Positions 28,183 to 31,067 of a stretch of 43,583 nt of DNA are shown piece by piece. The DNA lies in the NCBI GenBank assembly GCA_938039915.1, contig CALHUA010000227.1, positions 1 through 43,583 of the forward strand, given 5' to 3'. Under the pieces are notes generated by a model that was given only the letters and a program-made list of their open reading frames with translations, did no database searches and had not been told where the DNA came from. Position 1 is the stretch's first letter. Each line of letters starts with the position of its first letter. The DNA is from an uncultured Anderseniella sp. (lineage in GTDB: Bacteria > Pseudomonadota > Alphaproteobacteria > Rhizobiales > Aestuariivirgaceae). Made by a program: the position numbers and the translations under genes.

Positions 28183-29001
28183 TCAGGTTCGCCAGCGCAG
28201 CACGTAGCGCTCGATTGCGCCGATCGCGGTGCTGAGCAAGACGCCGAGCAGGGACAGGATGACGACGCCTGCAAACAGCCGTTCAAGATTGTAGAGTGCC
28301 CCGGCTTCCAGAATGTAGGCGCCGATGCCATGTTCCGCGCCCAGCATTTCTGCGGCCACCAGCAGGATGATGGCGATGGCCAGCGAAATGCGCAGACCTG
28401 ACAGAATGCCCGGCATGGCGCCCGGCAGGATGATTTTGCGAACGATGGATTTCCAGCTCATGCCGAAGCTCTGTCCCATGCGGATCAGGGTGCGATCGAC
28501 ATTGTCCACCGCGCCATAAGTGGCAACGACGGTCGGCGTAAACGTACCAAACGCAATCAGTGCATATTTTGAGGCTTCATCGATACCGAACCAGATGACG
28601 AACAGGGGCAGCAGGGCGATCTTGGGAATCGGAAATATGGCTGCGACAAGCGGCACCATGCCGGCGCGGATATAGGAAAACAGCCCGATCAGCACGCCCA
28701 GGCCGATACCGAGCGTTGCGCCGAGCGCAGCGCCAACTGCGAGCCTGGTCAGGGAAGGGGCCAGATGTGTCCACAACAGTCCGGAGTCATAAAGTTCGGC
28801 GAAAGTCAGTAAGACGTCAGACGGCTTGGGCAGTGTCAGTGGCGAGATGAAACCGGATTGCGTGCCGATTTCAGCGAGGCCGACCAGCACGACGAACACG
28901 GCCAGTCCAATCCAACGATAAGGTGTCGGTGCAAACCCGCCGCCGCGAAAGGCAACCTGGCGGGCGATGTCTGTTTCTTCCGTATCAGGGTCAGGACCCA
29001 T
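28183..29001 (-). CDS. ABC transporter permease (SsuC/TauC-like)
   Basis: Permease with EAA-loop-like SFGMSWKSIVRKIILPGAMPGILSGLRISLAIAIILLVAAEML. ATG at 29001 lies inside the left inverted repeat of the MITE-like element; track start 29043 is inside the element. Confidence 0.88.
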   Translation of the reverse strand: MGPDPDTEETDIARQVAFRGGGFAPTPYRWIGLAVFVVLVGLAEIGTQSGFISPLTLPKPSDVLLTFAELYDSGLLWTHLAPSLTRLAVGAALGATLGIGLGVLIGLFSYIRAGMVPLVAAIFPIPKIALLPLFVIWFGIDEASKYALIAFGTFTPTVVATYGAVDNVDRTLIRMGQSFGMSWKSIVRKIILPGAMPGILSGLRISLAIAIILLVAAEMLGAEHGIGAYILEAGALYNLERLFAGVVILSLLGVLLSTAIGAIERYVLRWRT

Positions 29002-29253
29002 TAATCTTATCCATTCTGCGGGAGGATATTTTGCCTGTGGCAAGGCGAAAAGGCGCAGGAAACCTTCCGGTTTTCAAGCCTTTTCAACGCAGTCAGGGGC
29101 AAAACAGACCCCGCCCTTCGGGTTTGAAAGAAAACACCCGCCTGAAAGCGAAAAATGCTCGACAAGGCACAAAGCCTTGCGTTGCGCTTTTTCACCATCA
29201 TTCGACTGTTTTCGTTCAAACAGAATTGCATAAGATTAATGGGTCCTGACCCT
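28987..29253. mobile_element. MITE-like/REP-like non-autonomous element, ~267 bp, with 24-bp perfect terminal inverted repeats
   Basis: Left AGGGTCAGGACCCATTAATCTTAT (28987-29010), right ATAAGATTAATGGGTCCTGACCCT (29230-29253), exact reverse complements; similarity continues inward imperfectly (CC-ATTCTG vs GCAATTCTG). No transposase inside. Confidence 0.75.
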
Positions 29254-30019
29254 AGACATTGATCAGCTCCGAATCTGCAGCCTTTGCTTCGTCACGCATC
29301 AGGTTCCACAGGTATTTCTGCCGGAACTGGAGATCGCTGTCACCGTAACTTCGCTCGTCCAGAGGTTTTTCCAGATGTATGACTTCCCGTATCTGGCCGG
29401 GACGGCGCGACAGCACGACAATTGAATGACCCATGCGAACCGCCTCGTCCAGATTGTGGGTCACATAGACTGCCGAAAACGGCTGCCGGGTCCACAACGC
29501 GACCAGATCGTCCATCAGCAGTTCACGGGTCTGGCTGTCCAGTGCCGACAGCGGTTCATCCATCAGCATGACGGCGGGCTTTACCGCCAGCGCCCGGGCA
29601 ATTGCCACGCGCTGCTTCATGCCGCCTGAAAGCTGTTTGGGCAGCGCGCGTGCAAAATCGGTGAGCTTGGTCCGGGCGAGAACGTCGCTGATCGTCTTCC
29701 TTGTTTCAGCGCGTGACAGGTCGTGATCTTCCAGCACCAGGGATACGTTGCCCGCCACACTTCGCCATGGCAGCAGGGCAAAATCCTGAAACACATAGGT
29801 CAACGGGTTCAGGCAGTCCTCAGCAGGCACGCCCAGTTGCAGCACACTGCCCTTGCTGGGAGTCTCCAGCCCGCCGATCAGCCGCAGCAGTGTCGACTTG
29901 CCGCAACCGGTGGGCCCGACAATGCAAACGATCTTGCCTGATGGAACGTCCAGGGAGATATTGCGGAGAACCTCGAGGTCGCCGTAGGAATGGCTGATCC
30001 CTGATAGACGGATATCCAT
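29252..30019 (-). CDS. ABC transporter ATP-binding protein (SsuB/TauB-like)
   Basis: CIVGPTGCGKSTLLRLIGGLE; LSGGMKQRVAIARALAVKPAVMLMDEPLSALD. Confidence 0.94.
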   Translation of the reverse strand: MDIRLSGISHSYGDLEVLRNISLDVPSGKIVCIVGPTGCGKSTLLRLIGGLETPSKGSVLQLGVPAEDCLNPLTYVFQDFALLPWRSVAGNVSLVLEDHDLSRAETRKTISDVLARTKLTDFARALPKQLSGGMKQRVAIARALAVKPAVMLMDEPLSALDSQTRELLMDDLVALWTRQPFSAVYVTHNLDEAVRMGHSIVVLSRRPGQIREVIHLEKPLDERSYGDSDLQFRQKYLWNLMRDEAKAADSELINV

Positions 30020-30047: not shown

Positions 30048-31067
30048 CTAGGCGCGGATCGTTTTCACATAGCTCGTATCAACAAGCGTATCCATCGTTA
30101 CATCGGCATCGACCAGTGTCTCGGACTGAAACCATTTCAATTGATCCTCGATCGATGTCAGGTTCAGGGCGGCTCCCTCGTTCAACCGCATGGTGCCGTT
30201 GATGATCGATGGGGCTGCTTTTTCAAGCGGTCGGTCGGCGTAGACATATTTATGGATCAGGCGGACCATGTCATCGACACCGTCCTTGCCACCGGTTCTG
30301 GCAATCATTGCCGCATTGTAGTCGGCAACCCCTTTGGAAAACCCGCCGAGGAAGTCACCCGTCATGCCTTTTTGTTCTGCAGCGTTTCGCGCAGACGTAA
30401 ATACAGTCGTGATCTGGTAATTAGGCAGGTAGTCGGAGACGTTGCCGATGATGTGCGCTGCACCAGACTTGGCGAGCGGCTTGGCGATATGCGGCACGAT
30501 CGACCAGGCATCAATCTGGCCTGATTTCAGGGCGCCGATTATCGCGCCGACCTTTTGCAGCGCTTTGAATTTCATCGACGCGCCTTCGGCTGTGGCGATT
30601 TTTGAACCCATATAGTGGAAACTGGAGCCCGCCGTGGACATGCCGAAGATCTTGCCGTCCAGCTTCTTCGGCGACGTCAGACCTGCCTTGTATGCAGCAT
30701 CAGAGGCCAGAATCTTCTGCCCGTCTATGCCCGGCTCTTCGGAAAGTGCGCCACCGATGACCTTGACGGCGCCTTTCTGGGCCAGCGAAATCAGACCGCC
30801 CGAAACGGCGGTTACGGCATAGTCGATACTGCCCGAGGCGATCGCAATGGCCATTGGCTGGGCTGCCTGAAAGAACTTCAGTTCAACATCCAGACCCGCA
30901 TCGGCAAAATATCCTCGTTCAAAGGCGATGAAGCTGCCGGAATGGCTGGTGAAGCGCAGCGCACCAACGGTGATTTTCCTGTTCTGAGACAAGGCTGGCG
31001 TTGCCAGACCTGCAGTTGCAGCGGCCCCTCCAATAAGTGTAATCGCCTTGCGTCGGTTCATTGTCAC
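30048..31067 (-). CDS. ABC transporter substrate-binding protein (SsuA/NMT1-like), Tat-like signal
   Basis: MNRRKAITLIGGAAATAGLATPALSQ; RKITVGALRFTSHSGSFIAFERGYFADAGLDVELKFFQAAQPMAIAIASGSIDYAV. Confidence 0.88.
   Translation of the reverse strand: MTMNRRKAITLIGGAAATAGLATPALSQNRKITVGALRFTSHSGSFIAFERGYFADAGLDVELKFFQAAQPMAIAIASGSIDYAVTAVSGGLISLAQKGAVKVIGGALSEEPGIDGQKILASDAAYKAGLTSPKKLDGKIFGMSTAGSSFHYMGSKIATAEGASMKFKALQKVGAIIGALKSGQIDAWSIVPHIAKPLAKSGAAHIIGNVSDYLPNYQITTVFTSARNAAEQKGMTGDFLGGFSKGVADYNAAMIARTGGKDGVDDMVRLIHKYVYADRPLEKAAPSIINGTMRLNEGAALNLTSIEDQLKWFQSETLVDADVTMDTLVDTSYVKTIRA

Follow-up and report, generated by a model that had tools for sequence, protein, structure and literature searches.

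A family of IS5-type MITEs whose terminal repeat appears to supply start codons to host genes, as seen at an ABC transporter operon junction

MITE insertions that fuse to open reading frames (ORFs) or supply stop codons have been described (PMC5896051, PMC2759123, PMC2229807, PMC10969869). The QMITE1 and QMITE2 elements of Coxiella burnetii overlap genes and can supply a stop codon; the study describes functional genes with an insertion at the 3' end and no effect on the 5' end of any gene of known function (PMC5896051), whereas the element reported here has 5' ends and start codons among its main sites. The Rickettsia palindromic elements and the enterobacterial RU/ERIC repeats are small repeats found fused in frame to ORFs, one RU-2 fusion contributing to an N-terminal signal peptide (PMC10969869, PMC2759123, PMC2229807). 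These are mainly internal or terminal peptide fusions, while in our family many genes unrelated to one another appear to be initiated from the terminal inverted repeat (TIR), and empty sites are documented. Bacterial IS5-derived MITEs are the most similar in construction, being short and multicopy, with TIRs shared with IS5_3 (NF033580), a TA duplication, no transposase of their own and a strongly palindromic interior; our element differs from them in that the outward ATG of the outer repeat is repeatedly the apparent start of a host gene and in that the copies in gaps between co-directional genes all have one orientation. In an unrelated system, the attI1 site of class 1 integrons, a short translated ORF (ORF-11 / ORF-17) passes ribosomes by termination-reinitiation to genes without an initiation region of their own (PMC8876359). 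The bridging ORF proposed below would work in the manner of ORF-11, but attI1 stays put while the cassettes move, and here the bridging ORF itself would be mobile. In the open-access literature we found no report of a family whose TIR repeatedly becomes a host start codon, and none of a strict MITE orientation between co-directional genes.

The window analyzed is a stretch of 43,583 nucleotides from an uncultured Anderseniella sp., and the coordinates of its relevant features are given in Table 1. The element is bounded by 27-nt inverted repeats (28987-29013 and 29227-29253) that are 96% complementary, with the outer 24 bp perfect, and the terminal pattern GGGTCAGGACCCATTAATC occurs at two places in the whole window, both of them element ends, where shuffled sequences are expected to give 0. 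The repeat search therefore upheld the segment of about 267 bp with 24-bp perfect TIRs that the first-pass annotation had proposed. That annotation also placed a GGGTC-AG-GACCC mini-hairpin in each TIR; the 12-bp motif (GGGTCAGGACCC) is present in both ends, but the palindrome it forms is imperfect, and the 2 bases at its centre could not by themselves make a closed loop. The target duplication being TA, the mobile core is 28988-29252. The longest sense ORF has 74 residues, which is below transposase size, so the element has no transposase of its own. It thus combines the features that define a MITE: a length below 600 bp with TIRs, multiple dispersed copies, a target duplication with empty sites, and no transposase gene.

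Table 1. Positions of the element, its parts and the surrounding operon genes in the window
Feature	Position	Strand	Basis or remark
MITE copy, 267 bp	28987..29253	- (sense strand = window minus)	TIRs, 5 further full host-genome copies, empty orthologous sites
Left TIR (L end, permease side)	28987..29010		sequence, repeat search
Right TIR (R end, ATPase side)	29230..29253		sequence, repeat search
TA target copy, ATPase side	29253..29254		with the element's first G (29252) makes the ATPase stop TAG
Second target copy, mutated	28986..28987		TG on minus strand (CA on +); TA in G001 and G002
ABC transporter ATPase gene (PF00005)	29252..30019	-	ends ELINV-TAG at junction
ABC transporter permease gene (PF00528)	28183..29001	-	as read from the element's ATG
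Substrate-binding protein (NMT1 / SsuA-like)	30048..31067	-	first of these three operon genes
Original permease ATG, now cut off from gene	29257..29259	-	matches the ATGTCTGA overlap seen in alignments of G004 and of 77 other operons
7-codon mini-ORF left at old start, ATG TCT AGG GTC AGG ACC CAT TAA	29236..29259	-	sequence; equivalent ORF in three congeners
74-residue ORF crossing element, putative translational bridge	29007..29231	-	stop TAA 5 nt before donated ATG; translation inferred
Donated ATG, L terminal repeat, candidate new permease start (MGPDP...)	28999..29001	-	congener alignment, reading frame, codon selection

Five further full-length copies, 88-92% identical to the window copy, are found in the host genome (six in all). 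Matches occur in 17 of the 60 genomes searched, and full-length copies in other genera and families reach down to about 71% identity. Most copies are flanked on both sides by TA, within the target consensus YTAR. IS5-family transposase genes with ends near-identical or similar to those of the MITE are present in two genomes: in G049 the ends CTAGGGTCAGGACCCATTAATT surround IS5_3-like ORFs, so that the MITE shares its ends with an autonomous element of the IS5 family (IS5_3, NF033580), and G004 holds an 844-bp insertion sequence with TAGGGTCCGGACCCA ends and NF033580 hits. No IS5 relative was found at E 1e-15 in the host genome (G000), which is 78% complete. IS630, also TA-targeting, was our initial guess for the partner and was dropped once IS5_3 elements with similar ends had been found. 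Membership in the REP/RAYT or IS200/IS605 groups, which are marked by hairpin ends, a TnpA/RAYT partner and the lack of a target duplication, does not fit the TA duplication and the DDE IS5-type relative; of the transposase types first suggested for matching ends, RAYT/IS200-like or DDE, only the DDE type found support. The multiple host copies, the empty sites and the IS5-family partner type with similar ends bear out the early description of the segment as MITE-like. On its sequence features, the 267-bp segment can be classed as a nonautonomous MITE of IS5 type with a TA target duplication.

Some observations on the wider distribution may be recorded here. A search of phage records with the element gave no match, and the sole plasmid-record match was a 118-bp stretch of a Sphingopyxis alaskensis plasmid (NC_008036.1:26462-26579), 73% identical to one element end. 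One IS5_3-type element with MITE-like ends (L136:1-1658, G049:C422) has room, between the left end and the transposase gene, for an additional ORF of 192 residues. At L262 (G005:C550), and also beside L182 and L183, there are 12-bp TIR remnants resembling GGGTCAGGACCC that look like footprints of element deletion or excision.

The element sits exactly between the ATPase and permease genes, as first described, with the ATPase stop overlapping the right terminus and made jointly by the target TA and the first G of the element. Three other genomes (G005, G002 and G001) carry the MITE at the identical ATPase/permease junction, while G004 and G013 have no MITE there and their permease start overlaps the ATPase stop. 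Among 80 related operons in named genomes, in 77 the permease start precedes the ATPase stop by 5 nt (ATGnnTGA type); the remaining three comprise two with the element, both from Anderseniella MAGs, and one with a gap of 26. Two Anderseniella MAGs hold the named permeases most similar to that of the window (98% and 91% identity), which makes the host a probable congener of Anderseniella (Alphaproteobacteria, Parvibaculaceae). Because both target copies are TA in G002 and G001, the ancestral site reads ATGTC TAA TACGG. We propose that a single insertion in the common ancestor of four Anderseniella-like species would have entered the TA of this ATGTC^TAA overlap of ATPase stop and permease start. 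As GGG opens each end of the element, the TA of the ATPase would have regained a stop (TAG), and the outward ATG of the L end would have fallen in the permease frame, giving a permease that now begins MGPDP or similar. The surviving old permease ATG opens a 7-codon ORF that ends inside the R repeat. Insertion with donation of both start and stop at this junction is very probable from these alignments. The first-pass annotation had suggested that the element was recruited as a stop/start junction, and had held that a segment single-copy everywhere and conserved in orthologous operons would speak against it. The five further host copies dispose of the former; conservation holds only for the three congeners, as a shared derived insertion, with G004, G013 and 77 of the 80 operons free of the element. 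The suggestion gains support from the empty sites, the element-free orthologous operons and purifying selection just past the junction.

Translation from the ATG of the L end yields MGPDPDTEETDIARQ. We compared permease codons 6-33, that is, the region from the junction to the first downstream in-frame start (GTG, codon 34), over four species and obtained a pN/pS of 0.18, the six pairwise comparisons together giving 45.5 synonymous differences against 24.5 nonsynonymous ones. All in-frame permease starts upstream of codon 34 are inside the element. Since codons 6-33 are under purifying selection and the earlier in-frame starts are confined to the element, these codons should be translated and the start should lie in the element. 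The permease could instead start at the GTG, 87 nt past the element end, or at an in-frame TTG inside the element, about 42 nt upstream of the ATG and kept in the four species. Either start is highly improbable: the pN/pS value excludes the GTG as sole start, and the ATG is conserved throughout the four species, with no other ATG in the open frame ahead of the gene body. No clear Shine-Dalgarno sequence was evident before the donated ATG. The donated ATG, already the best permease start at first reading (ATG 29001, MGPDP...), is the obvious candidate beside the upstream TTG.

To look at other genes, 60 loci were fetched with their flanks, the copies were located and frames were read outward from each end, and counts were taken over 55 independent copies from several genera. 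Many L ends open straight, in the frame of their ATG, into genes for TsaC/Sua5, MobA, malonyl-CoA synthase, an OppD-like ATPase, CcoG and HisN, and likewise into those for YihY, YraN, an aminotransferase, uracil-DNA glycosylase and others. Element-free orthologs were found with a chimeric DNA query and then aligned, and the alignments show precise TA empty sites for Sua5/TsaC, MobA, malonyl-CoA synthase, the OppD-like ATPase, CcoG, YihY and others. The native start is just upstream of the insertion in TsaC (ATGAGCCACGTCAC^TAAAG), malonyl-CoA synthase (ATGGC^TAACC) and MobA (GTGAA^TAAGG), likewise in the OppD-like and CcoG alignments, and in YihY as inferred from the joined site. Among the 55 independent copies, at least six genes besides the ABC permease are thus severed from their native start and read from the ATG of the element; in ArgC, GSA-like and HlyD-like genes the native ATG survives a few nt downstream of the element. 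As judged from alignments and reading frames, start donation is a recurrent property of the MITE family.

Three individual loci deserve mention. At the malonyl-CoA synthase start of G004 there is a 63-bp internal-deletion derivative (L278, C7:66711-67588) that retains the in-frame ATG (MSPDPNHLF), with an AAGGA motif upstream. In the upstream flank of G004 ccoG (L201) the abandoned native start seems decayed, ATGGCATCT in relatives being ttgcatct here, as is expected once the ATG of the element took over. At mobA the element is at the same TA in G001 (L186) and G005 (L174) with different upstream flanks, and G005 also has an element-free mobA (L268), which may reflect an independent insertion, a rearrangement or bin contamination.

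For 15 of the 16 independent cases in which an upstream sense gene reads as coding right to the R junction, the target TA falls in the frame of that gene's stop codon. With flanking genes called by a simple purpose-made codon model, we counted 21 sense and 0 antisense insertions between co-directional genes (genus 14:0, other genera 7:0; p 1e-6). Since GGG and ATG are present at both ends alike and the interior is close to palindromic, the orientation must be read from an asymmetric feature. Compared with a null built from 443 kb of one congener plus the window, sense insertions at a stop-codon TA number 14-15 of 55 versus 5-11% expected, and start-donating insertions number at least 7 of 55 with empty-site support (ABC permease included) and up to 12 by frame versus 2-5% of tolerated sites; these comparisons are rough, as they depend on a simple gene caller and a one-congener null and do not separate insertion from retention. 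Retention may reflect selection or targeting. Pure survivorship would have the MITE insert at any YTAR in either orientation, with most in-gene insertions dying and those beside starts or in stop codons persisting just because the ends chance to read inward as TAG and outward as ATG, with an unselected interior and no bridge. YTAR sites do concentrate at stop codons, where about 21% of the tolerated ones lie when both orientations are counted, not far from what is observed, and the interior ORF shows no selection at the amino-acid level. We nevertheless regard this explanation as unlikely, given that the 21:0 bias demands a non-palindromic feature, that start donation, with its joined or orthologous empty sites, exceeds expectation, and that the ABC permease, malonyl-CoA synthase and MobA represent three independent insertions into an RTGnn^TAA-type overlap, of which 443 kb yielded just 2.

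A candidate for the asymmetric feature is an ATG-initiated ORF of 65-82 codons on the sense strand, present in 46 of 55 copies and on the antisense strand in 12 of 55 (counted at a minimum of 60 codons and reaching the outward ATG). It opens close to the R end, and in 32 copies its stop comes 5 nt ahead of the donated ATG; the other ends are a TAATG overlap with that ATG (8), a stop just past it (3) and an in-frame run-on (3). In bacteria, coupling by termination-reinitiation is an established mechanism for genes that overlap or lie close together (PMC6728339). Ribosomes coming off the ATPase, or off the old permease start, would reinitiate on this ORF near the R end and be carried through the hairpin to the stop beside the donated ATG, and so on to the permease. 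Such a bridge would explain why the element is tolerated in operons in one orientation only; by keeping the inserted RNA translated it would limit polarity, which could explain the sense orientation even where the native downstream start is intact. Several observations count against the bridge. Selection of the ORF as a peptide found no support when tested, synonymous variants being 36 observed versus 35.5 expected. Nonsense variants are only weakly depleted (2 observed versus 5.8 expected, p 0.07), and in three operonic copies of G015 (L207, L210 and L212) the sense ORF is broken. We hold the bridge by itself to be a serious possibility that stops short of probable, and the combined statement of insertion, start/stop donation and bridge to be probable.

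The fold of the element bears on a further alternative. On both strands the near-palindromic interior folds very stably (z -12 and -11). Covariation over 40 copies is strong, with 96.4% of cells paired versus 84.8% in shuffles, and in 46 of 88 pairs both sides have changed. The TIRs of single copies from the genus (L165-L223) also change together, with 25 two-sided changes versus 5 expected, and in 24 of the 25 both sides took the same base; this may be due to hairpin-templated correction or to selection for pairing. A stable and conserved structure makes an RNA role possible, and the orientation bias could come from an orientation-dependent promoter, terminator or RNA-processing site, the start codons being incidental. 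This we consider quite unlikely. Scans of the element gave no sigma-70-like promoter, and the one terminator-like site, a weak one, is on the sense strand; effects that stem from a near-palindromic structure should hardly depend on orientation; and the loss of the native start at several genes calls for a translational explanation. An Rfam covariance-model scan of the segment gave no match at E up to 1. Returning to the translational reading, we put forward tentatively that the mobile family may be an operon-compatible translational relay, in which the stop is regenerated, the hairpin is crossed on the sense ORF and translation restarts at the TIR ATG, so that overlapping genes could be invaded with little harm to the host, and which is then locked in as their start codon.

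Where an operon junction is tightly coupled, one would usually expect an insertion to disable one gene or more. By way of its empty sites, this MITE family shows how an element can land inside a stop/start overlap with both genes left readable, and how a transposon end can turn into a start codon on which a gene depends. Host genes tied to a selfish element can here be counted directly, and the strict orientation in operons is given a mechanism open to test. There is also a consequence for annotation, namely that many MGPDP/MSPDP-type N-termini in these genomes would be element-derived.
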